Shown: positions 8,142-41,960, counted from the stretch's first letter. The stretch is 48,043 bases of DNA from Deltaproteobacteria bacterium (GCA_025361065.1 JANYAY010000013.1:1-48043), one strand, 5' to 3'. Notes: generated by a model not told the origin, from the sequence alone. Program-made: numbers and translations.

Positions 8142-8147
8142 TATTTC

Positions 8148-8525: not shown

Positions 8526-8532
8526 GCAACAG

Positions 8533-11189: not shown

Positions 11190-11259
11190 ATGCGCCGGGG
11201 TTTCCTGCTGGGCAGGCTGTCTTCTTGGGAATGACTGCGGAGACTGGAGTCCGGCGAGC

Positions 11260-11491
11260 GAGACTGTGTCGTAATCCCCGTTCTTGTCATTCCATCCAGC
11301 ATACGCCGGATTATATTCCAGCGCAGCGCGACGAAGAGCCTGCCCCGTACTCGATAAGGGGGAATCCAGTATTTTCGGTAAGTTCTGGATACCCCCGGCA
11401 GTCGCCGGGCTTTGGGCCGGAGTAAGACCCGGCGTATGCCGGGCCGGTATGACTGCTTTTATAGCGCTTCTTGCTACTAAGACACAGTCTC
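11260..11491. repeat. Composite palindromic repeat bounded by GAGACTGTGTCG / GACACAGTCTC
   Basis: Contains CATTCCATCCAGCATACGCCGGATTATATTCCAGCGCAGCGCGACGAAGAGCCTGCCCCGTA (inverted at 141-283) and GGATACCCCCGGCA...GGCCGGTATGAC (second copy at 11998-12066). Confidence 0.7.
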
Positions 11492-11619
11492 TTTCGTCGG
11501 GACGACGTCTGGATGCCGATGTTCATCGGCATGACACTCGTGATAGCACTTTTGCTATTGTGGCACAGTCTCATGCGCCGGGGTTTCCTGCCGGTCTGAC
11601 AGCGTAGGGGAATGACAAA

Positions 11620-11725
11620 ATAATCAACCATCTTGTAGCATGCTGTCGAGGTATGAAGTGAACGTCATTATATCGCGAGCTCGCTGCAGAGAATTAACGC
11701 TCGTCCACCAACAGCGGGATTAAAG
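11620..11725 (-). repeat. ~100-bp dispersed repeat at the hrpA 3' end
   Basis: AACGTCATTATATCGCGAGCTCGCTGCAGAGAATTAACGCTCG; inverted copy at 17150-17255. Confidence 0.75.
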
Positions 11726-15919: not shown

Positions 15920-16040
15920 ATTTGTCATACCGGCGAAAGCCGGTATCCAGGAAACCATTGATAATGCTGGATTCCCCCGTATCGAGTACGGGGCAGGCTC
16001 TTCGTCGCGCTTCGCTTGCACGGAATGACATAATTGTTAG
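15920..16040 (-). repeat. Dispersed palindromic repeat block
   Basis: CATACCGGCGAAAGCCGGTAT hairpin plus CTGGATTCCCCCGTATCGAGTACGGGGCAGGCTCTTCGTCGCGC shared with 170-220 and inverted at 11320-11370. Confidence 0.75.
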
Positions 16041-16173
16041 TTTTATGTAGTTGTGCAAAGGTCTCTTTAAATCTCTAAGCTGAAGTGTATATTTCATATG
16101 TAGAGGTATGCTGTCAATCGGGAATGATCTGTGCCTTCCTCTCCTCTGCCGGCGGAGGTATCACCAGGCATGG

Positions 16174-16377
16174 GAGACTGCGTCGCAAATGACAGATACT
16201 GATTGTAGTATATTTGTAATGTCCCCCGCTGGCGGGGGCAAGGGGGTGGATGCTTTTGAAGTGGCCATAATATTCATAATTTACACATTGGCACTCCTTA
16301 GTCCACCTCCGTCACTCCGTGACACCTCCGCCAGCGGAGGACACGAAATAGCAATTTATCTTATTGCGACACAGTCT
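16174..16377 (+). mobile_element. MITE-like element (204 bp)
   Basis: GAGACTGCGTCGCAAATGACAG ... TTATTGCGACACAGTCTC; homologous along its length to 10985-11189. Confidence 0.75.
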
Positions 16378-16652
16378 CTTTCGCCGGTATGACTGCTTTT
16401 ATAGCGGTTCTTGCTATTGTGACAAAGTCTCATGGGCCGGGCAAACTCCGTTTGACGGAGGTGGACAACTTGTTTTCCAATATGACGATAATGCTAATGA
16501 TTTTTGAAATTGTGATACAGGCAATTGGGGAGGGGGCAATCAATATCTGATTGTCTCACAATCTCCGGTTGCCGGGAAAGTATGAAATCAAATATTTCTT
16601 GACAGGGAAAAATAGTATGGTTTAATATATTCTAAACTGGAATGGTTCTGAA

Positions 16653-17087
16653 ATGAAAATAATGAAAAAAGAAGACCTGATCGGCCAATTAAGGGAAAAA
16701 GGCCTCAAGATCACCCCACAGCGCCTGGCAATTATCGACGCCCTGGTGGAAAACCGCACTAGGCATCCCGGCGCCACGCTGATTTATAATGAAGCAAAGA
16801 AGAAGGCCAAACGGGTCAGTTTGTCAACCGTTTATGCAACACTCAAAGAATTATCCGCAAGCGGCCTGATCAAGGCCATGGAGTTCGACCGGATGGAGAA
16901 CCGTTACGACGCCAATCTATCCGAACATCTCAATCTCATCTGCAAACGATGTGGGGCCATTGTTGATTTCAATCTCCCTGCTACCATTGAACAGAAGGAC
17001 ATCACCCGAAAAACGGGGTTTGTCGTCACGGATACCAGGATGGAATATTACGGGTACTGCGGCGACTGCCTGAAACGCCCAGAGTAA
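16653..17087 (+). CDS. Fur-family transcriptional regulator, PerR-like
   Basis: 144 aa; GLKITPQRLAIIDALVEN, VSLSTVYATLKELSASGLI, HLNLICKRCGAIVDF, YYGYCGDC; upstream of katG in the same orientation. Confidence 0.9.
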   Translation: MKIMKKEDLIGQLREKGLKITPQRLAIIDALVENRTRHPGATLIYNEAKKKAKRVSLSTVYATLKELSASGLIKAMEFDRMENRYDANLSEHLNLICKRCGAIVDFNLPATIEQKDITRKTGFVVTDTRMEYYGYCGDCLKRPE

Positions 17088-17149
17088 TCTTCTTATCCGG
17101 CAGCCTCGCGGCATATCAAGCGACGGTCAAAGAAGCACGATTAGCGGCT

Positions 17150-17255
17150 TTTATCCCGCTCACGCGGGGCGAGCATTAATTCTCGGCAGCGAGCTCGCGA
17201 TATAATGACGTTTATGTCTAACCTCGACAGCCTGCTGCGAGGTGGTTGATTTTTC
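17150..17255 (+). repeat. Dispersed repeat between the PerR-like gene and katG
   Basis: ATTAATTCTCGGCAGCGAGCTCGCGATATAATGACGTT...ACCTCGACAGCCTGCTGCGAGGTGGTTGATTTT; inverted copy at 11620-11725. Confidence 0.75.
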
Positions 17256-24983: not shown

Positions 24984-25050
24984 GGGAGAGATGCCTTTCG
25001 TTTTCGGTTATTGTGTTTAACATATAAGCCGTCTTATCTTCAAGAAATAA

Positions 25051-25213
25051 AGACTGAAGACTGAAGGCTGAGGGCTGAAGGGCGAAAGGAGAAAGGCTGA
25101 AGGCGAAAGGATAAAGGCTCAAGGTTAAAGCTAAAGGGCGGAAGCTCAAAAATAACCTTCAGTTTTCAGTCTTCAGTTCCTACCTTCAGTCTTCAGCCTT
25201 CAGTCTTCAGTCA
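25051..25213. repeat. Degenerate heptanucleotide repeat tract forming a long imperfect inverted repeat
   Basis: GACTGAAGACTGAAGGCTGAGGGCTGAAGGGCGAAAGG... followed by ...CTTCAGTTTTCAGTCTTCAGTTCCTACCTTCAGTCTTCAGCCTTCAGTCTTCAGTC. Confidence 0.85.
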
Positions 25214-25291
25214 ATTTTTTTAAGCAAATCCTTGACAGCGGGTATCAAAAATAATATAAGCCGAAGCGTTTCTACAAGTTAGTCAATCGTT

Positions 25292-25379
25292 GCCCGGGTG
25301 GCGGAACTGGTAGACGCAAGAGACTTAAAATCTCTCGCTCCTTGTGGGTGTGCCGGTTCGATTCCGGCCCCGGGCACCA
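25292..25379 (+). tRNA. tRNA-Leu (anticodon UAA), CCA encoded
   Basis: GCCCGGG...CCCGGGC acceptor stem, AGAGA-CTTAAAA-TCTCT anticodon arm, long variable arm, GGTTCGATTCC T-arm, CCA end. Confidence 0.97.
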
Positions 25380-25382
25380 AGA

Positions 25383-25430
25383 AAAAAAATGGCTTACGAG
25401 TATTTTCTAATTCGTAAGCCATTTTTCTTT
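25383..25430 (+). terminator. Rho-independent terminator downstream of tRNA-Leu
   Basis: AAAAATGGCTTACGA-gtattttctaat-TCGTAAGCCATTTTT stem followed by T-rich sequence. Confidence 0.85.
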
Positions 25431-25747
25431 TTCCTGCAAAGTTCATTTTATCCCGCTTTTATTCTGTTTTTTAATTTTTACACATAAAGAAACCCGGTCA
25501 TAAATTAAACATCTTCGCCCAGTATGATCCGGTGAATGATTCCGGGATTTTTCTCTGGCATGATGTTTTTGGGCGGTGCTGGTGTCTGAGTGATTAGGGT
25601 TCGTTGGTGTGAAAAAATCCGATGAGGTTTAGTGAGCCAATGTCTGATAATGCCATTTTAGCGGCACTCCGTCGTATGGGATACGTATAAAGATGAAAAT
25701 GGACAGATCACAGGGACCTATTGAAGGGCGGTGCAGCGATGATACTA

Positions 25748-25945
25748 TTTGAACTAAGAAACTATGCCTCGCTTGTCCTGAGACATGTCCCATTATGGAA
25801 CGTACATTATCGTATCTAAATATGATTTTCCATCATCTGTAATATTTATTTCTTATTAATATCATTATTTTAAACCAACGCTAAAGAATGAATGCTCTCC
25901 TCTGGCATAATATTTGGATTTCCTCACAACATCTCCAGAAAATAG
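25748..25945 (+). promoter_or_regulatory. Putative sigma54 promoter region, copy 1 (UAS + IHF-like + -24/-12-like)
   Basis: 27-mer CTGAGACATGTCCCATTATGGAACGTA at 25778, IHF-like TATCATTATTTTA at 25860, TGGCATAATATTTGGA at 25903; same spacing as at 29711-29851. Confidence 0.75.
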
Positions 25946-26132
25946 AAAAATATCAATAAAAAAAGAGCTGTTCTTGGGATGTAGCCATAGCTATTAATGA
26001 CAGCGGTATCATCTGCAGATCCGTCTATGGTCGGAGAGTTGTTTCCGGAGACGCAGAGAAAATAAATCACAACCTGTAACATTAGGGGGAAATTGATCCA
26101 CTCAAGTCAAAAAAAAAGGGGAGGGGAATATT

Positions 26133-27449
26133 ATGATGATTCGTTGGAAAGAGATGTACAAGCAGAAGCTGACAGTGCCGGATGAAGCGATAAAAATTGT
26201 CCAAAATGGTGATAAAATAGCGGTTCCAATAGCCAATGGACAACCACCGGCGCTTGTTTCCGCCGTCGCTAAAAGAGCCAAAACCGGAGAGTTAAAAGAT
26301 TCTGTGTATTTTGAAGTTCTTAACATACGTTGCCCGCAGATTTGCGCGCCGGATGTTGCCGGCAAAATCCACTACGAATGTGGATTCGTAGGACCATTGA
26401 GTCGCGGCATCGTAAACTCGGGAGTAGCTGAGTTTGTGCCAATCAGGTTTTCTTCCGGAAAACGTGTGTTAGTCGACGATAGAAAATTCAATGTTGTCAT
26501 GTTGACCGTATCACCTATGGACAAACATGGTTATTTCAGTTCCGGGACCAATGCAGATTATTCATACGCTATCGGCAAGGCTGCTTATCCTCACAAGATT
26601 CTGGTTGAAGTGAACGAGAAGATGCCCAGAACCTGTGGTAATAATCAGTTTCATATAACTGAGGTAGATGCTGTTGTTGAAAACACCCTTCCTTTAACCT
26701 GTTTGCCCGTCGAACCGCTGAGCAAAGAAGATGAGGCCATTGGCAGGTACATTGCAGAACAAATACCGGATGGCTCTTGTCTTCAGCTTGGTATCGGCGG
26801 GATTCCCAATGCGGTTGCAAAGTTCCTTGAGCATAAGAAAGATCTGAGTGTCCATACGGAAATGCTTTGTGATAACTATGTTGAACTGTACAAAAAAGGA
26901 GTTATAACATCGCGGTACAAGACCCATATGCCCAACAAATGGATATCAACATTTATCCTTGGCTCACAGGAGACCTACGATTTTGCAGATCAAAACCCCT
27001 TGGTTGAGATTTGGGGGGCAGAATGGGTCAACAACCCGCAAGTAGCTGCTCTGAACGATAACTTAATGACCGTAAACGCCACCGTAGAGGTGGATTTAAC
27101 CGGTCAGTGTGCATCGGAATCCATGAATTTCAAACAATTTTCGGGAGTCGGAGGTCAGGCTGATTTTGTTCAAGCTGCTGCTCAATCACGCGGAGGCAAA
27201 TCGTTTCTTGCCACCTATTCAACCTATACTGATAAGGAAGGTAATCTCCAATCCAAAATTGTTCCGGTTTTAAATAATTTCGTTACGATAAGCAGGATGG
27301 ATGTTCAATATGTAGTTACGGAGTATGGAATTGCCTACCTCAAAGACAAGTCCCTGAAGAACCGGGTGAATGAGCTTACGGCCATTGCCCATCCGGATTT
27401 TCGGGACTGGTTAAAGTCTGAAGCCAAGAGGTTTAAATTTACGATTTAG
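26133..27449 (+). CDS. Acetyl-CoA hydrolase/transferase family CoA-transferase (4-hydroxybutyrate CoA-transferase-like)
   Basis: 438 aa; LQLGIGGIPNAVAKFLEHKKDLSVHTEMLCDNYVEL, DLTGQCASESMNFKQFSGVGGQADFVQAAAQSRGGKS, VTEYGIAYLKDKSLKNRVNELTAIAHPDFRDWL. Confidence 0.92.
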   Translation: MMIRWKEMYKQKLTVPDEAIKIVQNGDKIAVPIANGQPPALVSAVAKRAKTGELKDSVYFEVLNIRCPQICAPDVAGKIHYECGFVGPLSRGIVNSGVAEFVPIRFSSGKRVLVDDRKFNVVMLTVSPMDKHGYFSSGTNADYSYAIGKAAYPHKILVEVNEKMPRTCGNNQFHITEVDAVVENTLPLTCLPVEPLSKEDEAIGRYIAEQIPDGSCLQLGIGGIPNAVAKFLEHKKDLSVHTEMLCDNYVELYKKGVITSRYKTHMPNKWISTFILGSQETYDFADQNPLVEIWGAEWVNNPQVAALNDNLMTVNATVEVDLTGQCASESMNFKQFSGVGGQADFVQAAAQSRGGKSFLATYSTYTDKEGNLQSKIVPVLNNFVTISRMDVQYVVTEYGIAYLKDKSLKNRVNELTAIAHPDFRDWLKSEAKRFKFTI

Positions 27450-27496
27450 AAATAAATTTGTGATGGTCTCGCAAAAAGTCCGTCACACCGGTGAAA

Positions 27497-27627
27497 GAGA
27501 CTGTGTCGTAATAGCACTTTGTCATTGCGAAACGCCTCTCAGGCGTTGTGTCAATCTAATGTTTCCAATAGATTATGAGATTGCTTTGCTCATTACATTC
27601 GCTCGCAAAGACATTATGACACAGTCT
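27497..27627. mobile_element. Short MITE-like element (131 bp)
   Basis: GAGACTGTGTCGTAAT...ATTATGACACAGTCTC termini, same as the family at 9989, 10985 and 16174; internal CGAAACGCCTCTCAGGCGTTGTG. Confidence 0.7.
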
Positions 27628-27639
27628 CTCCGGCACGGT

Positions 27640-29595
27640 TCACTGAAAACAGTTCAGTTTCCGGTATAGAGTGCTCCGGGACATGCCCAGTTTTTTGGCA
27701 ATTTGCCTCTTGGGAAGATTTGATTTGATCAGGTTTTCTATCAATGCACGTTCTATTGCATCGATCGTTCCCGTCTCTGAGTGACAGGCATAAAGGGTGT
27801 CTGTGATTTCTGGTGGCAGCAAATCAACAGTGAGGATGTTGGTGTGGGCAATGTTGATCATCCGCTCCAAAACATTTTGCAGCTCCCGTACATTTCCCGG
27901 CCAACCATAGTTTGTCAATATTCTTAAAACGTTGTCTTCGATCTTTTCGATTTTTTTGCCCAGCGATTTGCTGATGTGCTTAACGAAACTATCAACCAGA
28001 TGAAGAATGTCGTCTCGCCTTTCCCGAAGGGGTGTGATGCTAATCGTGAATACGTTCAACCGATAATAAAGATCTTCCCGGAAATTGCCTTTTCGCATTT
28101 CTTCTTTTAAATCTTTGTTGGTCGCAGCAAGGATCCGGACATCAATTTTTTTAACCCTTGTTCCCCCGATCTTGAGGACGGATTTGTCCTCAATAACCCT
28201 GAGAAGGGCTGCCTGCAGCTCCAACGGTGTTTCTCCGATTTCATCCAGGAAAATGGTGCCGCCGTCGGCGAGTTCGAATTTACCCTGACTTCCACCCTTG
28301 CGGGATCCCGTAAATGCGCCTTCGGAGTAACCGAATAGATCGCTGGTGATCAGGTCTCGGGGTATCGTGGCGCAATTGATGGCCACATACGGACCATCGC
28401 TGCGATGGCTGTCGTTGTGGATGGCTTGCGCAAGAATGTCCTTCCCCGTTCCGCTTTCTCCCAGAATAAGTACATTGGATATGCCCTGGGATGCTATTTT
28501 GGCTTGTCGGATGGTTTCCAGGAATATTTTATTTTGTCCGATAATATCCTGAAAACTGAAATTTGCTTTTGCCCCCATCATTTTTGTGGCTAGCGTCCTG
28601 GCTCTCTTGATCTCGCTCATGGTGATCACTTTTCCAACGGTGTCGTCCTGAGACAGGATCGGATAGCAGGATAACGTAAAGTCATCTTTGCTGTTTCCAT
28701 GGCAAACACGGACACCCACGTCGATAAGCGAGGTGCTGTTGCTTATTAAATCACTGATGTTTTTGTTATTAATGCCGATGACTGCGCCAAAATTTCTCTC
28801 CAATAACTTTTTTTCATCGTCGCCAAAAACTTTCTTGAAATTTTCGTTGACCATGGAAATGCAATTGTTGTTATCGATCGTAACAACAATTTCAGGAATA
28901 GAAGAAATCACCGTCTTTTGAAAGCAGTGGGCAATTCGCAATTTGTTCAGAGTATCTCTTAATTTAATTTCATTTTCAATGGCATATGCTGCTGCGACGA
29001 CCATCCCCAGCGTATGGGCGTGTGCTTTTTTATATGGCCCCGTCATGCAGATAAGGCCGATCAACTCGCCGCTTGTGCTATGAAGAGGTGCTCCTGAACT
29101 TGCCGAGTTGTGAGCACCCCGGCAATAACTTTCAGCAGCGTATATTTGAATCGGCCTGTCCAGTTTTAATCCGGTTCCCGCGGCATTTGTCCCCATCACA
29201 TCTTCCGCCCAGCAGCAGCCGGCGATGAAGTTGCGGCCTTTCAAATACTCCAGAACATCGTGATCTCCGAGCACATCCAGCATGTATCCACTGGCATCAA
29301 AGAGACCGACACAGAATCCCGATCCGTCGACAAAGCGATGAAGATTTCTCATGAAAGGAAGGCTTATGGTGATGAAATCTTTATTTTTTTCCAGTAATTC
29401 CGTTATTTTTTGTTTGTCGAGAACGGGAAGCTCCGGGAGATAAGGATCAATTCCGATTTTCTTAGACCTGGCCCATGATTCCTGAACAATGGGAGATATT
29501 ATGGCATAGTCAACAGGCATGCCATTCATAAATTTTTCCCATTCTACGAAACAGGCATTATATTTTTCTATATAATCCATAGTCAGCTCTCCCAA
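27640..29595 (-). CDS. sigma54-dependent enhancer-binding regulator (GAF + PAS + AAA+ + Fis HTH, AcoR/DhaR-like)
   Basis: 651 aa; LGESGTGKDILAQAIHNDSHR, GYSEGAFTGSRKGGSQGKFELADGGTIFLDEIGE, REDLYYRLNVFTI, C-terminal RQIAKKLGMSRSTLYRKL. Confidence 0.95.
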   Translation of the reverse strand: MGELTMDYIEKYNACFVEWEKFMNGMPVDYAIISPIVQESWARSKKIGIDPYLPELPVLDKQKITELLEKNKDFITISLPFMRNLHRFVDGSGFCVGLFDASGYMLDVLGDHDVLEYLKGRNFIAGCCWAEDVMGTNAAGTGLKLDRPIQIYAAESYCRGAHNSASSGAPLHSTSGELIGLICMTGPYKKAHAHTLGMVVAAAYAIENEIKLRDTLNKLRIAHCFQKTVISSIPEIVVTIDNNNCISMVNENFKKVFGDDEKKLLERNFGAVIGINNKNISDLISNSTSLIDVGVRVCHGNSKDDFTLSCYPILSQDDTVGKVITMSEIKRARTLATKMMGAKANFSFQDIIGQNKIFLETIRQAKIASQGISNVLILGESGTGKDILAQAIHNDSHRSDGPYVAINCATIPRDLITSDLFGYSEGAFTGSRKGGSQGKFELADGGTIFLDEIGETPLELQAALLRVIEDKSVLKIGGTRVKKIDVRILAATNKDLKEEMRKGNFREDLYYRLNVFTISITPLRERRDDILHLVDSFVKHISKSLGKKIEKIEDNVLRILTNYGWPGNVRELQNVLERMINIAHTNILTVDLLPPEITDTLYACHSETGTIDAIERALIENLIKSNLPKRQIAKKLGMSRSTLYRKLNCFQ

Positions 29596-29679
29596 TTAGG
29601 TCCTATTACTGCTATAGACGCTCCCGTATCCATAACTGAAATGAAAAAGATCCGGTGCAGTGGTTGGCAAGCGAAATCA

Positions 29680-29880
29680 AATTGAACAAAGAAGCTATGC
29701 CCCGCTTCTACTGAGACATGTCCCATTATGGAACGTAGATTGCTGCACCTAAACATAATTTTCAATCATCTGCAAATTTTTTTTCTTATTAATATCATTA
29801 TTTTAAAACAATGTTGAAGAATGAATGCTCCACTATGGCATAATATTTGGATTTCCTCACAACATTTCCAGAAAATTATA
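29680..29880 (+). promoter_or_regulatory. Putative sigma54 promoter region, copy 2 (UAS + IHF-like + -24/-12-like)
   Basis: Identical 27-mer at 29711-29737, TATCATTATTTTA at 29793, TGGCATAATATTTGGA at 29836; paralogous to 25748-25945. Confidence 0.75.
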
Positions 29881-29941
29881 ATCAGTAGATGATCATTAGT
29901 GTTCCCCGCAAGTCGCCGGAGGGGGCTTCACAATTGAAAGA

Positions 29942-30538
29942 ATGGTGAGCGATGAAAAACAATTGCACGGGGAATCTGTGAATTTGAAGGGTCAACTCCA
30001 TATCCATACGACTTTTTCCGACGGAAGGCTTACCCTTCAGGAAGTGTCCAATATCTATGAGGACCTCGGATTCGATTTCATTGTCGTTACCGACCATGAT
30101 CACCTCTTAAAGCCCGGTTATCGAGAGGCCATTGAAGGGTTAAGATCGAACCTGCTCGTCTTTTTCGGCGTTGAGCTCACATTGCATACCCGCTGGGGTT
30201 ATGTACATGTCAGTGAAATCGAAGGCAAAGAGGAGAAACTGTATATTTTCAACCACCCCTACGAATATGGGTTATCTTTGAAACAGTGCCGGGAATGCAT
30301 CAAGGATGTGACAAGGGTGCATAGGCTCGATGCCGTCGAAGTGTCGCATCAGGGTTTTTATACGCCTCAGTTTGACAGCGAATCCATTCCTTACCCGAAG
30401 GTAGCTACCGATGATTCGCACGCCAGAATGGGTTGCGGGCGGGCATGGATCGAGATTGTTTGCGAGAAGGATAAGGATACTATCCTGAGACAAATAAAGA
30501 AAGGAGAGTTCAAATATCGTTTTGTTAGAGGGCAGTAA
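29942..30538 (+). CDS. PHP-domain protein (putative metal-dependent phosphoesterase)
   Basis: 198 aa; LKGQLHIHTTFSDGRLTLQEVSNIYEDLGFDFIVVTDHDHL, FFGVELTLHTRWGYVHV, FNHPYEY, ATDDSHARMGCGRAWI. Confidence 0.88.
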   Translation: MVSDEKQLHGESVNLKGQLHIHTTFSDGRLTLQEVSNIYEDLGFDFIVVTDHDHLLKPGYREAIEGLRSNLLVFFGVELTLHTRWGYVHVSEIEGKEEKLYIFNHPYEYGLSLKQCRECIKDVTRVHRLDAVEVSHQGFYTPQFDSESIPYPKVATDDSHARMGCGRAWIEIVCEKDKDTILRQIKKGEFKYRFVRGQ

Positions 30539-30585
30539 ATTATTATGGCAAAATAATATGAACAATAGAACAGGAGGTGTGAGAA

Positions 30586-31731
30586 ATGAAAAGGGTTGCT
30601 ATCTGTGCGGTGGCACAACACGAGATTAAAGGCAACATTTGGTACAAGCGTTTTCAAGATATGTTGCTGGACATTCTCGAAGATCTGCAGGGGGAAACCG
30701 GATTTACCTTTGGCGGCGAAAATGGTGTGAAGAACGTATTAACCTGTTCCGACGATTTTTTTGATGCCAGAACTATATCAGACAATGCGGTGAACGATGT
30801 AGTCGGTGCTGCCAATTACCGGGGAGAACAGAAAATGGCGCAGGAAGGGCTTAACGGTATTGGATACGCAATGGCCGATATTCTGTCCGGACATGATGAT
30901 GTTATTTATTTTGCAGGACATTGCAAAGAGTCTCTTTCGGCAAGCAGGAATCAAATAGCGAACATGGCTTATGATCCGTTTTACTGCCGTTGCCTGGGGA
31001 TGGATTACCTTAATGCCGCAGGACTCCAGGCCAGAGCATACATGGAGAAAACCAAGATCACTCCAGAGCAGCTTGCGCAGGTGGTTGTGAGAGCGCGTCA
31101 ATGGGCGTCTCGAAATACATATGCCAATGAGAAAACGCAGCTTAATCTGGGCGATGTAATGTATTCATCCGTTCTTTGTGATCCGATAAGAAGCCTGCAT
31201 GCTTATCCGGTATCGGACGGTGCGGTAGCAATGCTTCTCGCCTCTGAAGAAAGGGCATATGAATTCACCGACAATCCGATTTGGATCACCGGTTTTGGGA
31301 ACTGTATGGACGATTATTTTATGGGCCGGCGTGATCTGGCGGCGAGCTCCGCTTTGAAAAAAGCCGCCGAGCAAGCCTACAAGATGGCCGGCATTAAGCA
31401 GCCGCGGAAATCGGTCAACTTGATGGAGGTTATGGACTGTTATGCTTATCAGCAACCCATGTGGCTGGAGGGTCTGGGTTTGTGCGATGAAGGCAAGGGG
31501 GGCGATTTCATCAATGAATATGGTCCGGCCAAATACAACGTCAATCTCTCCGGCGGCATGCTGGCCGGGAGGCCTCTCATGATTGGCGGTTTATACGGGG
31601 TGGCCGAGGCGGTTCTGCAACTTAAGGGTCAGGCCAATGAGCACCAGGCAGCTGACGTAAATTGCGCTGTTATCCAAAGCACGACGGGCGGGGCGGGACA
31701 GTTCCAAACGGTTGTTGTACTTGAAAGATAG
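30586..31731 (+). CDS. Thiolase-fold protein 1 (SCP-x/lipid-transfer-like), catalytic residues apparently absent
   Basis: 381 aa; DDVIYFAGHCKESL, MEVMDCYAYQ, NLSGGMLAGRPLMIGGLYGVAEAVLQLKGQA, TTGGAGQFQTVVVLER. Confidence 0.82.
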   Translation: MKRVAICAVAQHEIKGNIWYKRFQDMLLDILEDLQGETGFTFGGENGVKNVLTCSDDFFDARTISDNAVNDVVGAANYRGEQKMAQEGLNGIGYAMADILSGHDDVIYFAGHCKESLSASRNQIANMAYDPFYCRCLGMDYLNAAGLQARAYMEKTKITPEQLAQVVVRARQWASRNTYANEKTQLNLGDVMYSSVLCDPIRSLHAYPVSDGAVAMLLASEERAYEFTDNPIWITGFGNCMDDYFMGRRDLAASSALKKAAEQAYKMAGIKQPRKSVNLMEVMDCYAYQQPMWLEGLGLCDEGKGGDFINEYGPAKYNVNLSGGMLAGRPLMIGGLYGVAEAVLQLKGQANEHQAADVNCAVIQSTTGGAGQFQTVVVLER

Positions 31732-31742
31732 GGGGTCTCCAA

Positions 31743-32945
31743 ATGACGAAAAAGAAAAATAGAAATGTAGGTATTGTAGGAATCGGAATGACGGAAATAT
31801 CCAGTCATAAAGAAGACCAGAACCAGCCCGAGATGATCAACGAGGCGGTTAGGGCAGCCCTTGCCGATGCCGGAATAACTTTGAAAGATATAGACTGTGT
31901 TGTTCATGGAAACATGGAGTTGTTTGAAATGGTGCATCAGCCGGACCTGTGGCACATGATCGGTACCGGCGCTCTGGGCAAGCCCGAATTCAGGATTACG
32001 ACGGGGGGCACTACCGGTATGACCCTGATTGCCGCATCAGACAATCTTGTAGCGTCAGGCATGTATGATGTTGTCATGGCCATAGGATTCAATAAACTGC
32101 AGGAGGCGGGGAGTACCACTGGCGGCATAACAAATATGGCGGACCCTCTTTGGTATCGTCATTTGCAGACCGGCGCTTTGACCAGCACTTCGGCCAATAT
32201 GACCATTGAGGAATTTGGTGCAGAGCGGGCGAGAAAGGCTGCAATGAAGCATCGTATTATGATGGATAAACATGCCGGTCTCAACGAGAGGGCGCACAGG
32301 AGATTGGGGCTGGAATACAATCAGATGGAAGACCTTATGAAAAACTCGCCGCCGCTTATCGGTGATCTGAGGCTGATCCACATGTGCTCACAGAGTGACG
32401 GCGCATGCGTTATGATATTAGCTTCAGAAGAAAAAGCAAAAAAAATAAGTAAAAAGCCGGTTTGGATTAGAGACCATATTGCTGTCCACCGGGAGGAAAC
32501 CGCATCCAACGCCTATTTCCCCATCCTGAGTGAAAACTCTCATCGTGCCGCGGCCAGGAAACTTTTTGCCCGAAACGGCATCACCAATCCGGTCGAATAC
32601 TTTGATGTCTTTGAAATGTATGACCCATCCGCGTGGTGGGGTATTGAATGGCTGCGCGATTTCTTTCTCTTAAAAGGAGATGAAGCCATTAAGATGGTGG
32701 AGAATGGGGATTGGGATCTTGACGGGAAGGTGCCGGTCAACCCTTCGGGCGGCGTAACCGCCAGCAATCCCATCAGCGCAACCGCAATGTTAAAACCGGC
32801 GGAAGTTGCGCTTCAGATAAGGGGAGATGCGGGGACACATCAGCTTAAACGGGAAGTCAGGCACGGACTTGCTTCCGGGTTTGGTGGAGTTATGTGGACG
32901 GAGCTGATGATACTGGAAAAAGACTTAAATTGGCAGGGGGTGTGA
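31743..32945 (+). CDS. Thiolase-fold protein 2 (SCP-x/lipid-transfer-like), catalytic residues apparently absent
   Basis: 400 aa; VGIVGIGMTEISSHKEDQNQPEMINEAVRAALADAGITLKDID, FRITTGGTTGMTLIAASDNLVASGMYDVVMAIGFNKL, VPVNPSGGVTASNPISATAMLKPAEVALQIRGDAG. Confidence 0.88.
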   Translation: MTKKKNRNVGIVGIGMTEISSHKEDQNQPEMINEAVRAALADAGITLKDIDCVVHGNMELFEMVHQPDLWHMIGTGALGKPEFRITTGGTTGMTLIAASDNLVASGMYDVVMAIGFNKLQEAGSTTGGITNMADPLWYRHLQTGALTSTSANMTIEEFGAERARKAAMKHRIMMDKHAGLNERAHRRLGLEYNQMEDLMKNSPPLIGDLRLIHMCSQSDGACVMILASEEKAKKISKKPVWIRDHIAVHREETASNAYFPILSENSHRAAARKLFARNGITNPVEYFDVFEMYDPSAWWGIEWLRDFFLLKGDEAIKMVENGDWDLDGKVPVNPSGGVTASNPISATAMLKPAEVALQIRGDAGTHQLKREVRHGLASGFGGVMWTELMILEKDLNWQGV

Positions 32946-33430
32946 TGATGGCTAAAAATAAATTGAATACTCAGGCTGAGGAACTGATTTCCATACAAGT
33001 CGTAAACTCCATTGATTACTCTTTCCCCACCGGACCGATTATGGGGAAGTGGTTTCAGGGCCTGAAGGAGAAAAAGTTTTATGCGACAAAGTGTCCTTCC
33101 TGCGGTCGTACTATGACTCCGCCTCGGGGGTGTTGCGCGTTATGTGTTGTCCGTTCCGAGGAATTTGTGGAAGTTGGGCCCAAAGGTACCGTCGAAAATT
33201 ATGATATTGCGTACTATGCAAGCCCTGATCCGCTGACCGGAAAAGTACGCTCCACTCCGTACGCCGCGGTTTTCGTACGGATGGACGGATCCGATTGTGA
33301 CATCTTTACTCATGGAATCAAGGACGAGGATATTCCTAAGCTCAAGCGTGGGGTGAGAGTGAGGCCCGTATGGAATGAAGTAAGAACCGGGTGTATTGAA
33401 GATATGCTGTACTTTGAAATTGATGCTTAA
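32945..33430 (+). CDS. DUF35 (Zn-ribbon + OB-fold) protein 1
   Basis: MGKWFQGLKEKKFYATKCPSCGRTMTPPRGCCALC; GTVENYDI; start taken at the ATGATG overlapping the upstream TGA (ORF track start 32894 is probably too early). Confidence 0.85.
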   Translation: MMAKNKLNTQAEELISIQVVNSIDYSFPTGPIMGKWFQGLKEKKFYATKCPSCGRTMTPPRGCCALCVVRSEEFVEVGPKGTVENYDIAYYASPDPLTGKVRSTPYAAVFVRMDGSDCDIFTHGIKDEDIPKLKRGVRVRPVWNEVRTGCIEDMLYFEIDA

Positions 33431-33436
33431 GGAGAG

Positions 33437-33916
33437 TTGAAAATGAATACATGCAGAAATGAGATCAGTAAAGACTGTTTCGTTGTACCCGGAAAGATGG
33501 CTCTTCCCAACCAGTATTTTGCCGGCCGGGTAGGATCGAAGTTTATCATATCCCTGCGGGATTCAAGGAAGATACTTGGTGTCCGCTGCCCGAAATGTAA
33601 AAGTGTTTATGTTCCGCCTCTGGAATACTGTGAGAAGGATATGACAAAAATTGATGAGAATTGGGTGGAACTGGGGAATGAGGGAGTCCTTACCAACTAT
33701 ACGGTGGTGAACTACCGTGATGCGCACTTGCCCAGAAAAGTGCCGTATATCCTGGGGATGGTCCTACTGGATGGCGCGGAAACGCCGTTTGTCCACATCG
33801 TTTCGGGCATTGAGCCGGAAAATGTGGAGATCGGCATGAGGGTCAAAGCCGTGTTTGCCGACAAAACGACGAATACTATTTTGGATATCGATCATTTTGC
33901 GCCGGTCGAGGAATAA
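33437..33916 (+). CDS. DUF35 (Zn-ribbon + OB-fold) protein 2
   Basis: 159 aa; FIISLRDSRKILGVRCPKCKSVYVPPLEYCEKDMTKIDENWVELGNEGVLTNYTVV. Confidence 0.85.
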   Translation: MKMNTCRNEISKDCFVVPGKMALPNQYFAGRVGSKFIISLRDSRKILGVRCPKCKSVYVPPLEYCEKDMTKIDENWVELGNEGVLTNYTVVNYRDAHLPRKVPYILGMVLLDGAETPFVHIVSGIEPENVEIGMRVKAVFADKTTNTILDIDHFAPVEE

Positions 33917-33997
33917 AATGATAATTGTCACTGCCCGCTTGTTCTGAAATAAGAACCCGGCGGCAATAATAAACAGAAAGGGTTAAGGGTCAAAAAT

Positions 33998-35149
33998 ATG
34001 GATTTCAGAATAGCCGAAGAGCATCTTGCCATTGTGGAAAGCGTCGAAAAATTTGCCAGAAATGAGATGTTGCCGCTGGCGCAGGAGTTGGATGAAAAAA
34101 GCGAGTTTTCCAAACCTTTGTGGAAAAAAATGGGTGAATTAGGTTACCCGGGCCTGTTGGCTGATCAAAAATATGGAGGAAGCGGTCTGGGTGCGCTGGG
34201 GACGACGATGGCTCTTGAGGCTGCCGGGAGAGGAGGTGCGGATCAGGGCACCTTGCTTTCCTGGGCTGCTCATATGGTTATTTCCATGTTAAACATTGAG
34301 CACTGGGGGAACGAGGAACAAAATCAAAAGTATCTCCCGAAGATGGCAGTGGGTGATTGGATAGGAGCGATGGCCCTGACAGAACCCAATGCAGGTAGTG
34401 ACGCCAGCTCAATTACAACCAGGGCCGCACGTGAGGGAGATAAATACATTCTCAACGGCACCAAGCTGTTTATAACCAATGGGCCGATCTGTGACGTTGT
34501 AGTCGTAATAGCGCGTTCTGAGGCTGGTTCCAAAGGCGCCAACGGGACCACTGCCTTTATCGTTGATAAGAGCATGCCGGGATGGTTTTCGAGTAGAAAA
34601 CTGGACAAGATGGGGTTAAGGGCTTCACCGACGGGAGAACTGGTGTTTGATAATTGCGAAGTTCCGGTGGAGAACGTTTTGGGTGAGGTCGGTATGGGTA
34701 TAAAAAGTGTCGCTTTCTCTGGTGTCAACTGGGAGCGGACGATCCTGGCCGGTCATTTCCTGGGAGGTATGGAATTCAATCTGGACCAGTGTATAAAGTA
34801 TGCCAAGGAGCGAGTACAATTCGGGCGACCTATCGCCAGTTTTCAAGCGATACAGCATAAAATAGTCGATATGGCTGCGGATATTGAGGCGCTGAAGCTT
34901 TTATTCTACAGACAGGCCTGGATGATTGATAACAATATCCCTTGTATAAAAGAGACTTCGCTAACGAAAGCCATATTGGGCGGGATGATGCTCAGGAATG
35001 CAGATGAAGCGATCCAGATATTTGGCGGTTATGGGTTATGTAAAGAATATCCTGTGGAAAGGTTTTACCGTGATTGGAAGCTTGCCTCAATCGGGGGCGG
35101 TACAGCTGAGGTTAACAGGGATATCGCCGCCAAGATCCTGTTGAAATAA
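33998..35149 (+). CDS. Acyl-CoA dehydrogenase 1
   Basis: 383 aa; MALTEPNAGSDASSITTRAAREGDKYILNGTKLFITNGP, RVQFGRPIASFQAIQHKIVDMA, QIFGGYGLCKEYPVERFYRDWKLASIGGGTAEVNRDIAAK. Confidence 0.96.
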   Translation: MDFRIAEEHLAIVESVEKFARNEMLPLAQELDEKSEFSKPLWKKMGELGYPGLLADQKYGGSGLGALGTTMALEAAGRGGADQGTLLSWAAHMVISMLNIEHWGNEEQNQKYLPKMAVGDWIGAMALTEPNAGSDASSITTRAAREGDKYILNGTKLFITNGPICDVVVVIARSEAGSKGANGTTAFIVDKSMPGWFSSRKLDKMGLRASPTGELVFDNCEVPVENVLGEVGMGIKSVAFSGVNWERTILAGHFLGGMEFNLDQCIKYAKERVQFGRPIASFQAIQHKIVDMAADIEALKLLFYRQAWMIDNNIPCIKETSLTKAILGGMMLRNADEAIQIFGGYGLCKEYPVERFYRDWKLASIGGGTAEVNRDIAAKILLK

Positions 35150-35155
35150 TGGGAA

Positions 35156-35525
35156 GTTGTTCGGACAGTCAAAGGTTGTTTTTCCGGCGCGTCTCCGCTC
35201 CCCGTGGAAGTCATCAAGTCGTTCGAGGCCAAGACTGGTGCGCAGATATGCGAAGCATACGGGCTATCGGAAACAAGTCCCGGGGTTACGATCAACCCGT
35301 TGGGCGGCAAAACAAAGGCAAGTTCGGTCGGCCTTCGTGGTGATGAACCCTGGTCAACAGATGACAGCGGAAGAGGTGATGAAATTCTGCCAGGAGAAAC
35401 TGGCGAAATACAAGGTTCCGACTGCAGTCGAGTTTATCGACGCTCTCCAGAAGAGTGGTGTGGGAAAAATCCTCCGCAAGGAACTAAAAGCGGCCGAGCT
35501 GGAAAAGATGAAGACCGCGAAATAG
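35156..35525 (+). pseudogene. Remnant of an AMP-dependent acyl-CoA ligase
   Basis: VKGCFSGASPLPVEVIKSFEAKTGAQICEAYGLSETSPGVTINPLGG in one frame, then after an internal deletion FVVMNPGQQMTAEEVMKFCQEKLAKYKVPTAVEFIDALQKSGVGKILRKEL in another. Confidence 0.88.
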
Positions 35526-35666
35526 AATTCCATGGACTGACAGGGAGTAAGCAGTTCTCTAAGTTAACAGGGAACAGACGTAATGGCCGCAAAAGATCAA
35601 ATTTTATGCGGAAATTTCTTTAAGAAGCAAAATCTTACTAAAATATAAAAGGGGGAACATAACATC

Positions 35667-37256
35667 ATGAAGGGATTAACACCGTATGAAGAAAACGTAA
35701 TACGTCGCGTCGCCGTAGGTGATATGCTCATTCGAACCGCCGCCCGCTATCCGCATACGAAAGCTCTGCGCTTTCGCGATAGAACCTACACGTTCACCGC
35801 ATTGAACAAAGCCGTCAACCGCTGTGCTCACGGCCTGACTAAAATGGGTGTAAAGAAGGGCGACCGGTGTGCTATTCTGTCCCACAACTGCGACCAGTTC
35901 GTCATCCTCTGGTGGGGCCTGATGAAGATCGGGGCTGTCATTACCCCCCTCAACTTCATGCTGAAAAACGACGAGGTCAAATATATCGTCAATCATTCTG
36001 AACCTGTGGCCTTCTTTGTTGAAGACAAGCTCATTCCGAACATGCTAACCATCAAGGATTCGTTGAAAACAGTCCGAATCTTCGGCTACATCAATCTGGC
36101 CGGCGAAGCCGTCCCGGAGGGGTGGCTGAACATTGAAGATCTCTGGAAGGCCGACCTTCCCGCCACAGAACCGGAAGTCCTGATTTATCCGGATGATCCG
36201 GCGCTCCTTCTCTATACCTCCGGCACCGAGTCGGCACCCAAAGGCGTCGTCAACACGCATCTCAATTTTTTCAGTATAGTCCTGAGCGCCTCGGCGGACC
36301 TGCACATCGGCAAGGGGGACGTCACTATCGGCGGCATTCCGCTGTATCATGTCGCTGCGATGTACCTCTTTATTGCCTTTGTCGCCCTCGGTGCCACAAA
36401 CCTGATGGAATATGCCCCGGACCCGGTCGAGATCCTGAAGTTCACTCAGGAAGATAAGGTTACTATCTGGGTCTGGCCACCGACTTTGTACATCAACCTG
36501 CCGCTGTTTCCGAACTTTGACCAACTCGACTTCTCATCGCTCAAACTATGCATTGTGTTCGGCGCACTTTGTCCACCGGCTGTTCTGGAGCGGTGGCGAA
36601 CAAAGCTGCCTTCAACCCAGTTCATGAACTACTATGGTCAGACGGAGATGAGTCCCCTGGGTGCCTGTCTGCAGGATGAAGATTTCCCTGCGCATCCTGA
36701 TTCCATCGGCCGTTCCCATGTTCCGCTGGAATTGAAGGTCTTTGGTCTGGACGACAAGGAGCTGCCCCGGGGCGAAGTTGGTCAACTCGTTGCAAGAGGT
36801 CCGGCAATCATGCGTGGCTATTACAAGGAAGAGGACAAGACGGCAGCGACTTTCCGGGGCGGTTGGCACCATACGGGCGACATCGTCCGGATGGACGACG
36901 AAGGTTTTATCTACTTCGTTGATCGGGCCAAGGACATCATCAAGACCGGCGGAGAAAATGTCTCCTCACAGGAAGTCGAGGCGTTCCTGTACAAGCATCC
37001 GAAAGTGGCCGATGCGGCCGTCATCGGTATGCCCGATCCGGTCTGGTCGGAAGCAGTTACGGCGATCGTAGTCCCCAAGCCGGGTCAGACGCTGAACGAG
37101 AAAGAGATCATTGATTTTTGCAAAGAGTCTCTGGCTGTCTACAAGGTTCCGAAAAATATTTTCTTTATCGAGGCGCTGCCGCGCAATCCGAGCGGCAAGG
37201 TCCTGAAGAACATCCTGCGCAAGGAATGCGAGGACAAACTGAAGGCAAAGGTCTAA
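35667..37256 (+). CDS. AMP-dependent acyl-CoA synthetase/ligase
   Basis: 529 aa; LLLYTSGTESAPKGVVNTH, MNYYGQTEMSPLG, WHHTGDIVRMDDEGFIYFVDRAKDIIKTGGENVSSQEVE, NPSGKVLKNILRKE. Confidence 0.95.
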   Translation: MKGLTPYEENVIRRVAVGDMLIRTAARYPHTKALRFRDRTYTFTALNKAVNRCAHGLTKMGVKKGDRCAILSHNCDQFVILWWGLMKIGAVITPLNFMLKNDEVKYIVNHSEPVAFFVEDKLIPNMLTIKDSLKTVRIFGYINLAGEAVPEGWLNIEDLWKADLPATEPEVLIYPDDPALLLYTSGTESAPKGVVNTHLNFFSIVLSASADLHIGKGDVTIGGIPLYHVAAMYLFIAFVALGATNLMEYAPDPVEILKFTQEDKVTIWVWPPTLYINLPLFPNFDQLDFSSLKLCIVFGALCPPAVLERWRTKLPSTQFMNYYGQTEMSPLGACLQDEDFPAHPDSIGRSHVPLELKVFGLDDKELPRGEVGQLVARGPAIMRGYYKEEDKTAATFRGGWHHTGDIVRMDDEGFIYFVDRAKDIIKTGGENVSSQEVEAFLYKHPKVADAAVIGMPDPVWSEAVTAIVVPKPGQTLNEKEIIDFCKESLAVYKVPKNIFFIEALPRNPSGKVLKNILRKECEDKLKAKV

Positions 37257-37316
37257 GGACGACGGGATTGATGAAAGTAAAGACAAAATAATACAATAAT
37301 TATGAGGTGAAAACTA

Positions 37317-38234
37317 ATGAGCAATAAACGTATTGTTACCTGTGCAATAACCGGATCTATTAATATTCCCACTATGTCGGAGTACCTTCCCATCACACCC
37401 CTGCAGATCGCTCAAAATGCGCTGGATGCCGCTGCTGCGGGAGCGGCGGTGGTTCATATCCATGCCCGCAATCCGGAGAACGGCATGCCCTCGCCGGATC
37501 TTAATATCTTTCAGGAGATTATTGATCTCATTCGTGAAAAGAATAAGGAACTCATTATTTGTCTTACCACGGGCGGTGGCGCGGGAATGACGGTAGAGCA
37601 GCGGTTGTCGGTGGTTCCGCGGTTCAAGCCGGAGCTGGCTTCCTGCAATCTGGGATCCATAAATTGGGGAATATTTGTCATTGGCGAGAAATATAAAGAG
37701 TTCAAATATCCTTGGGAAAGCGCGATGCTGAAGATGATGGAAGGTGCCATCTTCCAGAATAGTTTTGCCGATCTTAAAGCGATGCTTCCCATAATGGCAG
37801 AAAATGGAACCAAACCGGAGTTTGAGGTTTACGATACGGGGCACCTCAACAATTTGGCCTACCTGATACAGGCAGGCCTCATTAAAACGCCAGTTTATTT
37901 GCAGTTTGTGACTGGTATCTTGGGAGGTATCGGTTCAACTCCTTACGATCTTATCAATCTGCACACGACTGCAGATCGGCTTATCGGTCCGGGGAACTAC
38001 GTGTGGTCTGCATTCGGTGCAGGACGGGCCGAGTTTCCCATCTGTGCCCAGGCGTTATTATTGGGAGGTAATGTGCGGGTAGGTATGGAAGACAATCTAA
38101 TGCTCACCCGCAAGCAGAAGGCAAAGAATAATGGGGAATTGGTGGAGAAGATGGTGAGAATCATGCGGGAATTCGATTTCGAGCCAGCCACGACGGAAGA
38201 GGCGCGGGAGATTCTGGGTCTAAAGAAGAAGTAG
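37317..38234 (+). CDS. BKACE / DUF849 family beta-keto acid cleavage enzyme
   Basis: 305 aa; VTCAITGSINIPTMSEYLPITPLQIAQNALDAAAAGAAVVHIHARNPENGMPSPD, PEFEVYDTGHLNNL, VRVGMEDNLML. Confidence 0.93.
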   Translation: MSNKRIVTCAITGSINIPTMSEYLPITPLQIAQNALDAAAAGAAVVHIHARNPENGMPSPDLNIFQEIIDLIREKNKELIICLTTGGGAGMTVEQRLSVVPRFKPELASCNLGSINWGIFVIGEKYKEFKYPWESAMLKMMEGAIFQNSFADLKAMLPIMAENGTKPEFEVYDTGHLNNLAYLIQAGLIKTPVYLQFVTGILGGIGSTPYDLINLHTTADRLIGPGNYVWSAFGAGRAEFPICAQALLLGGNVRVGMEDNLMLTRKQKAKNNGELVEKMVRIMREFDFEPATTEEAREILGLKKK

Positions 38235-38303
38235 CGTTGACATTGGTAAAGTTGGCAAAAGGGTTTCATTACGTCCACAACATATACAAGGAGTCAACGG
38301 ATT

Positions 38304-39446
38304 ATGAATTTTGATTTCAGTAAAGAAGAACAACTCATCCAAAAAGCGGCCAAAGAATTTGCGGACAAACGTATTGCACCGGTAGCCGGCAACATCCATC
38401 GAACCAATGCAATGCCTGCGGAGATCGTGGATGGTCTGGCCGATTTGGGTATGTTCGGAATCCCTTTTTTAGAAAAATACGGCGGAGGCGAGGCCGGTTA
38501 TCTCAGCTATATCCTGGCTTTGGAGCAATTGTCCAAAGCCTCGGCCGGTGTGGGGATGATCATCTCGGTCAATGCCGTGGGCCTGGCCGTCATTAACGTA
38601 TTCGGCACGGAGGAACAAAAACTTGCGTATCTGCCTCAGAGTATTGACGGAAAAAAGATCATGTCTTTCGCCTTTACGGAACCGGGCACGGGGTCTGATC
38701 CCAAACAACTCACGACAACGGTCAGCAGGGATAAAGACGGCTATCTCCTCAACGGAACCAAACGTTTTATCAGCAATGCGGGCTATAAAGGGCCTATGGT
38801 CGTTGTAGCCAAAGAAAGCGATACGGGCAAAGCAACGGCGTTTGTGATTGATAAGTTCTGCGACGGTTATTCCCTCTCCGCGCCCTGGGAAAAGATAGGG
38901 GCTCATGGCGGCGGCCTTTACGATGTGTATTTCAAGGATGTGAAAATACCGGCGGAAAACTTGCTAGGTCAGAATGGCGGCGGCCTTTCGGCGCTCAAGA
39001 TTGCCATGATTTATGGAAAAATCGGCCTGACGGGTTTATTCCTGGGCCAGGCACTGGCTGCATTTGAGGAGGGTCTTCGGTACGCCAATGAAAAGATGCA
39101 CCGCGGGGAATCCATTGGACACAAATTCGAGCACATCAAAATATCAGTGGCCGACATGGCGATGAAATATGATGCGGCCAAATGGCACGCGTATCACCTC
39201 GGGTGGGCTGCCGACAATTACAAAGACCCGTTGCAGTTGGCGAAAGAAGCGGCCTTATCCAAAGTGTTCGTTGCCGAAACGGCCATTGACATCGCCCGGA
39301 TCTCAATGGGCATCCATGGCTCCTATGGTCTGATGGAAGACTACAAAATATCCCAGATATGGGGCGATGCGATCATTGGTCCGCAGGTTGAAGGCACGGC
39401 GCCGCTCTTGAAAATAATGGGAGCTGGAATCATTCTGAACGGCTAA
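38304..39446 (+). CDS. Acyl-CoA dehydrogenase 2
   Basis: 380 aa; SFAFTEPGTGSDPKQLTTTVSRDKDGYLLNGTKRFISNAG, IGHKFEHIKISVADMAMKYDAAKWHAYH, MGIHGSYGLMEDYKISQIWGDA. Confidence 0.95.
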   Translation: MNFDFSKEEQLIQKAAKEFADKRIAPVAGNIHRTNAMPAEIVDGLADLGMFGIPFLEKYGGGEAGYLSYILALEQLSKASAGVGMIISVNAVGLAVINVFGTEEQKLAYLPQSIDGKKIMSFAFTEPGTGSDPKQLTTTVSRDKDGYLLNGTKRFISNAGYKGPMVVVAKESDTGKATAFVIDKFCDGYSLSAPWEKIGAHGGGLYDVYFKDVKIPAENLLGQNGGGLSALKIAMIYGKIGLTGLFLGQALAAFEEGLRYANEKMHRGESIGHKFEHIKISVADMAMKYDAAKWHAYHLGWAADNYKDPLQLAKEAALSKVFVAETAIDIARISMGIHGSYGLMEDYKISQIWGDAIIGPQVEGTAPLLKIMGAGIILNG

Positions 39447-39492
39447 GCCGTGTTCCGCCATGGTGGGGAGCAATAAACGTGGAGATGGATAA

Positions 39493-40794
39493 ATGGAACA
39501 AGAAGACGACTCACGATTTGATGCCATTGTCATCGGAGGAGGGCTGGCGGGACTTTCCGCAGCCTACACCCTCGCCGCGGAAGGTATGGAGGTCTTGGTT
39601 CTTGAACGGGGCGACTATCCGGGAGCCAAAAATGTAACGGGGGGCCGAATCTATGTGAGTTCCATCCGGGAGCTTTTTCCTGATTTGTGGACGAAGGCCC
39701 CGTTGGAAAGGTTCATCGCCCATGAAGAAATCTGCGTTATGGGCCGGGATAGTTCCCTGAACGTAAGGTATGACGGCAGTGAATTGCTCCGGGAGCCTCA
39801 TCAGAGTTACAGCATTTTGCGCGGAAAATTCGACAAGTGGTTTGCCAGGCAGGCCGAACACAAAGGCGCCACGATTATCTGCAAAACCAGGGTGGACGAT
39901 ATTATTATCGAGAACGGTCGGGTTGTTGGCGTTGTGGCGGCGGGAGACCGTCTGATGGCCAATGTTGTAATCGCCTGCGACGGTGTGCTGTCGTTTGCCG
40001 CCGGGAAGGCCGGGTTAAATAAGTCCGCAGACAGCGGTCATTTCGCCATCGGATTCAAGGAGGTGATCGAAATTGACCCCGCTGTTCTCGAAGACCGCTT
40101 CAATTTGACAGAGGATGAAGGTGCCGCCCGTCTTTTTATCGGCGACGTCACGGCGGGAAAATTCGGCGGCGGATTCCTTTATACGAATAAAAGCAGCGTC
40201 AGCTTGGGGCTTGTTTTAGGGATCGGCGCTCTAGTGGTGGAAGAACCAACCGTTCAAGTGCCGGAACTTCTGAACAAGTTCAAGCAACGGTCCGAAATAT
40301 CCAGATTGATTAGAGGAGGAAAAACCGTTGAGTACTCGGCGCATATGATTCCGGAAGGGGGCATAAAAGCCATGGGCAAACTTTACGCCGACGGCATCCT
40401 TGTCGCGGGAGATGCGGCGGGATTTTCCATTAATATCGGAATCACTGTCAGAGGCATGGAATACGCCATGGCTTCCGGCTACTATGCCGCCCGGGCCGTT
40501 ATCAACGCAAAGGAGAAAAACGACTATAGTGCAGCCACCCTGGCCGTGTATGAAAAGTTTCTGAACGACAGTTTCGTCATGACAGATTTTAAAAACTTTC
40601 GGGAGTCTCTCGACGTTCTGAAATATCCCCTGCTATATGGGCATTATCCCGAATTGATCGTCGGGATTATGAAAGATTTGTACGAAATGCCCGCGGGACC
40701 GAAAACCCGGATATTCCCCACCGTCAGAAAACATCTGGGGTTGCGCGAACTGTGGGCAATGGTTCCCCTCTGCCGAAGGATGATGAAAATATGA
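39493..40794 (+). CDS. fixC: FixC-like FAD-dependent electron-transfer flavoprotein:quinone oxidoreductase
   Basis: 433 aa; FDAIVIGGGLAGLSAAYTLAAEGMEVLVLERGDYPGAKNVTGGRIY, LVAGDAAGFSINIGITVRGMEYAMASG. Confidence 0.9.
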   Translation: MEQEDDSRFDAIVIGGGLAGLSAAYTLAAEGMEVLVLERGDYPGAKNVTGGRIYVSSIRELFPDLWTKAPLERFIAHEEICVMGRDSSLNVRYDGSELLREPHQSYSILRGKFDKWFARQAEHKGATIICKTRVDDIIIENGRVVGVVAAGDRLMANVVIACDGVLSFAAGKAGLNKSADSGHFAIGFKEVIEIDPAVLEDRFNLTEDEGAARLFIGDVTAGKFGGGFLYTNKSSVSLGLVLGIGALVVEEPTVQVPELLNKFKQRSEISRLIRGGKTVEYSAHMIPEGGIKAMGKLYADGILVAGDAAGFSINIGITVRGMEYAMASGYYAARAVINAKEKNDYSAATLAVYEKFLNDSFVMTDFKNFRESLDVLKYPLLYGHYPELIVGIMKDLYEMPAGPKTRIFPTVRKHLGLRELWAMVPLCRRMMKI

Positions 40795-41066
40795 GCGACT
40801 TGAAAGCTAAACTGGGATTGGATGTCTTCAAAGAAGATAAGGCCTTTCCCATTGCGATAAAAAAAGGACTTGAGCGCGACCCGCGCTTAAAAAAAATGGT
40901 TTTGATCTGTCCCGCCGGATTGTACGGCGAGGACGAGTCGGGGAAGATAGCCCTGAGTGCAGATGGGTGTCTGGAATGCGGGACATGCCTGCTGGTGTGC
41001 GGAGCGGATATATTGGACTGGCAATATCCGAGAGGCGGTGCGGGCGTGCAATTTCGTTTTGGCTGA
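40791..41066 (+). CDS. fixX: FixX-like ferredoxin
   Basis: MSDLKAKLGLDVFKEDK...ICPAGLY...CLECGTCLLVCGADILDWQYPRGGAGVQFRFG; ATG at 40791 overlaps the fixC stop; ORF track start 40752 is too early. Confidence 0.9.
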   Translation: MSDLKAKLGLDVFKEDKAFPIAIKKGLERDPRLKKMVLICPAGLYGEDESGKIALSADGCLECGTCLLVCGADILDWQYPRGGAGVQFRFG

Positions 41067-41197
41067 CAGGCCATTTCGGAGATGGAAACGAACCGGGGGT
41101 TGACATCCGTAAAACGGTTCGGGCGGTATGGTGGGGTTGCCGTATTTCCTGCCCTTTGTGCTTCTTATTGAACCATACACAAAAAGGAGGTTTTGCG

Positions 41198-41956: not shown

Positions 41957-41960
41957 AACT

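Follow-up and report, generated by a model that had tools for sequence, protein, structure and literature searches.

Why does the gene of a transcriptional activator lie between two near-identical pieces of non-coding DNA, one ahead of a CoA-transferase gene and the other ahead of an operon that begins with a PHP gene? The locus belongs to a Deltaproteobacteria bacterium (GCA_025361065.1 JANYAY010000013.1:1-48043), and the whole stretch of 48,043 nucleotides that we analysed is here called the window. An earlier note on this DNA had proposed a regulon in which one activator serves two flanking cognate promoters, and the promoters, half-sites and distances found in relatives support that proposal. 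The locus is very probably a local two-promoter sigma54 regulon, whose single regulator would switch on the CoA-transferase gene and the PHP operon together. Bacterial control of this kind is already known; the parts of interest are the duplication of a promoter, the exchange of a regulatory module and the operator of a regulator family.

A probable activator gene between two paralogous promoter-like blocks

Aligning the window with itself by blastn matched positions 25749-25943 to 29682-29876 over 195 bp without a gap (86.7% identity, E ~1e-56). Both blocks are read on the plus strand. Copy 1 stands upstream of the CoA-transferase gene and copy 2, divergent from the regulator gene, upstream of the PHP/thiolase/Fix run, the contexts that the earlier note had given. 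We considered and rejected the blocks as coding DNA, since none of their frames is open, and their description as paralogous non-coding DNA holds. Each contains the identical 27-mer CTGAGACATGTCCCATTATGGAACGTA (25778-25804 and 29711-29737), an IHF-like site, TATCATTATTTTA, one mismatch away from WATCARNNNNTTR (25860-25872 and 29793-29805), and a -24/-12 element, TGGCATAATATTTGGA, detected by motif scan (25903-25918 and 29836-29851, the latter 106 bp ahead of the start codon of PHP). All three motifs lie on the plus strand, and we reproduced their reported identity and coordinates, together with the spacings from GACATGTC of 78 bp to the IHF-like site and 121 bp to the -24 element in both copies. 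From the position of the -24/-12 elements, transcription is predicted to start near 25929 and 29862.

Flanked by the blocks, a gene on the minus strand (27640-29595) encodes a protein of 651 aa. By profile matches and motifs it comprises a GAF domain, a PAS domain (a weak match), the AAA+ domain of sigma54 activators, its lid and an HTH of the Fis type. Its proposed identity as a sigma54 enhancer-binding protein (EBP) is borne out by the AAA+ domain (PF00158, 7e-65), which carries GESGTGK as Walker A, GGTIFLDE as Walker B and GAFTGS, and by the C-terminal Fis-type HTH (PF02954). The last residue of GAFTGS is the same in all 24 homologs; D. vulgaris has EBPs whose targets are predicted or known and which carry GAYTGS or other variants (PMC4641369). 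In the genome no other EBP shares the regulator's subtype, and twenty-odd others match it over the AAA+ and HTH domains only. Its domain order, sensor domains followed by AAA+ and Fis-type HTH, is related to that of AcoR-, DhaR- and PrdR-like GAF-PAS EBPs, but it falls far below the NCBIfam equivalog cut-offs for PrdR (371.8 of 795 bits) and DhaR (356.9 of 551 bits), and its targets are different. The genome also encodes rpoN and HU/IHF-type proteins.

A probable family operator built from TGTCYCA half-sites

What sequence would such a regulator recognize? From other genomes we collected homologs of 47-65% identity, each with up to 20 kb of surrounding DNA. In nearly all of these loci, the intergenic DNA divergent from the regulator gene contains one -24/-12 element, for example TGGCATGATGAATGCT; the coding DNA there has almost no such elements. 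Across 21 dereplicated loci, with the window and its near-duplicates left out, we counted 27 TGTCYCA/TGRGACA half-sites where 1.2 were expected (maximum of 5 in 1000 dinucleotide shuffles). Their density in the DNA facing the homologous regulators is 22 times that in the rest of the same loci, and most lie about 90-155 bp upstream of the -24/-12 element. Half-sites form inverted pairs of the form TGTCTCA-N-TGAGACA in L055 and L062, read TGTCTCA-TAT-TGAGACA in L046, and recur as direct repeats at 10 or 11 bp in L035, L045, L054 and L132. Seven of the 21 loci lack half-sites altogether, which means that the family does not share one uniform operator.

The window 27-mer reads TGAGACA-TGTCCCA-TTA-TGGAACG from -124 to -101 relative to the -24 element. 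These putative activator sites (UAS) occupy 25779-25802 in copy 1 and, identically, 29712-29735 in copy 2, both on the plus strand; the former are identified by the enrichment of half-sites upstream of the sigma54 promoters of homologous regulators, the latter by the relatives' half-sites and by a pattern scan of the genome. In both copies half-sites lie at -117 and -124 from the -24 element, inside the range of about 80-200 bp typical of EBP sites. Since the 27-mer is built from the half-site of the relatives, GACATGTC, which had been taken for the palindromic site, is the seam between TGAGACA and TGTCCCA and not the operator. From its sequence, the operator is likely to be the dyad TGTCCCA-TTA-TGGAACG with an abutting half-site. 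The right half of this dyad, TGGAACG, has two mismatches to TGRGACA, and the arrangement of half-sites is unlike that of most relatives. A TGT-N11-ACA spacing agrees with the half-site spacings of D. vulgaris, where EBP motifs in three groups have TGT and ACA half-sites 9, 11 or 12 bp apart (PMC4641369).

The 27-mer, with up to three mismatches allowed, occurs at two places only in the 3.95-Mb genome (reversed control, zero), and the combined pattern TGTCYCA-N85..115-TGGCAYN6TGSW recovers the two blocks alone (control, zero), with no third site. Across the order, the UAS-promoter pattern was found in 30 of 155 genomes, and the control gave four hits. Among the loci that we inspected, about half have an EBP homolog within 1.5 kb, several more have the complete operator TGTCTCATTGAGAC at a remote operon, and others resemble chance matches in coding DNA. 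In the literature that we searched, nothing relevant was found on a TGTCTCA operator or on enhancer binding with sigma54 in Syntrophus. The half-sites offer a testable operator for an uncharacterised branch of sigma54 activators beside CoA-linked degradation genes, carried by syntrophic-type bacteria in which genetics is hard.

Promoter elements and the fate of the duplicate

How closely do the two promoters follow the sigma54 consensus? At -24 both read TGGCAT, in agreement with TGGCAY. At -12 both read TTGGA against a consensus of TTGCW: the spacing and TTG are kept, while C is replaced by G. The proposed sigma54-type element agrees with the consensus in its -24 half and its spacing and departs from it at -12, with GG for GC. 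Every promoter that we inspected in relatives has TGC at -12, and in D. vulgaris this element is tTGCt with a highly conserved C (PMC4641369). Because TTGGA is kept in both copies, the departure may be a tolerated one, or it may reduce basal activity. In L131, a locus of genome G076, the -24/-12-like sequence CGGCATAACCATTGGT also has GG at -12 and lies 126 bp before the PHP gene of a PHP-thiolase cluster. Another -24/-12 candidate in the window, TGGAACGTAGATTGCT at 29729, was rejected as a shared promoter, being present in copy 2 only and overlapping the UAS.

The sequence and position of the IHF-like site and its single mismatch were as the earlier note described. A site with at most one mismatch would be expected in such an AT-rich stretch with a chance of about 50% (shuffles) and is weak by itself, so the family, and not this site alone, makes IHF plausible: 14 of 17 relatives have an IHF-like site (at most one mismatch) within the 85 bp before the -24 element, where 6.4 were expected.

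Do both copies work? Since the blocks are paralogous by duplication, shared motifs alone do not prove function in both, and one could be a passive copy carried along when a local rearrangement moved the CoA-transferase gene beside the regulator; the leader of about 200 nt between copy 1 and its gene would also fit. We consider this unlikely. The copies differ at 26 positions, none of which touches the three motifs, 53 bases in all (P = 1.3e-4 under random placement, for motifs partly picked for being identical), which suggests that both copies have been maintained. A regulator flanked by two plausible sites also occurs in G057, whose homolog is 55% identical. There, a -24/-12 element with TGTCCCA/TGGGACA lies on the divergent side and a second one, with TGTCTCATATTGAGACA, downstream of the regulator gene; the two are not recent copies of each other, and G057 would be an independent case of promoters on both sides of the regulator. 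Promoter-like elements flank the regulator on both sides in G001 as well. In G057, a transposase-like open frame seems, from reading the sequence, to separate the divergent promoter from an HpaB-type gene.

The -12 departure also leaves room for a reading in which both blocks act as promoters of the sigma70 type and a repressor or other regulator uses the 27-mer as its operator; CATAAT within the -24 element, matching five of the six positions of the -10 consensus, would then be the -10 box. This is very improbable: no sigma70-type promoter on the plus strand of either block passes the scan, the sequence at the would-be -35 differs between the copies, and relatives have canonical -24/-12 elements at the same place. 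That the block represents a short repeat, mobile or dispersed, with no part in regulation, as the length of the duplicated intergenic DNA and the abundance of repeats elsewhere in the window might suggest, is an explanation of negligible probability, given that DNA searches with the whole block returned only itself and its twin in its own genome, nothing in a set of 59 genomes of relatives and nothing among plasmids, and that its motifs agree with the UAS and promoter found family-wide. As for the 27-mer, which the earlier note expected beside orthologues of the regulator, the block as such is absent from the relatives; its TGTCYCA half-sites are present there.

Probable target genes and exchange of the regulatory module

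The first target of the two-promoter regulon would be the CoA-transferase gene (26133-27449, plus strand), whose product belongs to the acetyl-CoA hydrolase/transferase family (PF13336, PF02550). Its best NCBIfam match, TIGR03948, is far below the cut-off, and no homolog above about 45% identity was found in the order. The second would be the operon at 29942-42908, a large and putatively acid-degrading gene cluster identified by profile matches and, from PHP to BKACE, by gene order in G032, a genome of the same family. All on the plus strand, its genes encode PHP, two thiolase-fold and two OB/zinc-ribbon proteins, an acyl-CoA dehydrogenase, an acyl-CoA ligase, BKACE, a second acyl-CoA dehydrogenase, a FixC-like protein and a FixA-/FixB-like, or ETF-like, pair; the Fix names come from reading the translations, that of FixC with backing from Pfam. 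BKACE is nearest to the 3,5-dioxohexanoate-cleaving family, below its cut-off (379.9 of 430 bits). A frameshifted remnant of the C-terminal part of an acyl-CoA ligase (35150-35560) lies between an acyl-CoA dehydrogenase gene and the intact ligase gene. The BKACE gene itself (37276-38227) is 92.5% identical in DNA to a copy in G002 (L049:5030-5980), where it is part of a different operon that starts with an HpaB-type protein and adjoins a homolog of the same EBP; its sequence suggests that this one gene was transferred between two operons belonging to the EBP family.

In G032, the genes from PHP to BKACE are kept in order, with 75-90% protein and about 80% nucleotide identity. The divergent neighbour there is an unrelated EBP of 1044 aa (L114:848-4357), and homology does not extend into the DNA upstream of the operon: the alignment begins at 29971, inside PHP. 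A near-perfect -24/-12 element, TGGCACCATTATTGCT, lies 127 bp before PHP in G032, with TGTCCATATAAGGACA 91 bp upstream of that element. An activator and a sigma54-type promoter before the same operon support sigma54 control and show that the regulatory module has changed hands. The window genome (G000) and G032 thus form a natural experiment, in which the operon is shared, the activators differ and sigma54-type promoters precede both. Sixteen more distant clusters of the same genes have no -24/-12 element (at most one mismatch) in the 300 bp before PHP (202 bp in one).

Where did the window's module come from? The regulator groups with those of Syntrophaceae MAGs and of family f16 and not with regulators of its own family (support 100/99, on a long branch). 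This grouping, and the CoA-transferase without a relative above 45% in the order, suggest that both were acquired. The only credible Rfam match in 25000-30200 is a tRNA, a tRNA-Leu (taa) at 25292-25379, some 370 bp upstream of copy 1, and it may mark the insertion point of the CoA-transferase region. Tentatively, one can go further and imagine an exchangeable regulator-promoter cassette: in one lineage the activator of the conserved PHP-thiolase operon would have been replaced wholesale and the new promoter copied, recruiting a foreign CoA-transferase gene, both promoters working with GG at -12. We regard this as possible, with the odds somewhat against it; if true, it would show clearly how a regulon can grow by duplicating a promoter.

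Proposed mechanism and comparison with known systems

From the sequence we infer that the regulator binds both promoters and that both fire. We also infer the ligand, the direction of duplication, the action of IHF and the activation itself, as follows. The regulator would probably sense a ligand linked to the pathway through its GAF (or PAS) domain and bind at the TGTCYCA half-sites, which precede each -24 element by about 110-125 bp. An IHF-like protein would help to bend the DNA, and the regulator would use ATP in opening sigma54-RNA polymerase at the two promoter elements (25903 and 29836). The CoA-transferase gene and the PHP-thiolase-BKACE-acyl-CoA dehydrogenase-Fix operon would be turned on together. 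The second promoter would have arisen by copying of the 195-bp block, placing the CoA-transferase gene under the same switch. What might the ligand be? The nearest regulators (L045, L046 and L049) have in their neighbourhood operons that encode HpaB-type proteins, CoA-transferases or a sodium:solute symporter. The HpaB-type family includes 4-hydroxybutyryl-CoA dehydratase. These neighbours are in keeping with CoA-linked substrates and give a hint of short-chain hydroxy acids as the signal.

The closest parallel we compared is orp1/orp2 of D. vulgaris, where the EBP DVU2106, sigma54 and IHF drive two operons from EBP sites at -131 and -88, with IHF sites between those and the promoter (PMC3897727). 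As in the window, one EBP gene stands alongside two sigma54 operons that are switched on together. However, the orp promoters are divergent and are not described as copies of each other, whereas those of the window point in the same direction and are 87% duplicates; the genes are functionally unrelated to those of the window. Reconstructions in Desulfovibrio (PMC4641369) and Clostridiales (PMC6615313) have yielded local sigma54 regulons that comprise one to four operons, and these too have an EBP gene adjoining its targets and palindromic or multiple UAS. The window differs from them in being Syntrophaceae-like (kin at the level of the order), in its TGTCYCA/TGRGACA operator and in its duplicated promoter.

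Elsewhere in the window, repeats of 30-230 bp, both direct and inverted, are numerous at 1-2240, 6655-12066 and 15934-17254, and a 236-bp tandem pair lies at 1654-2121.
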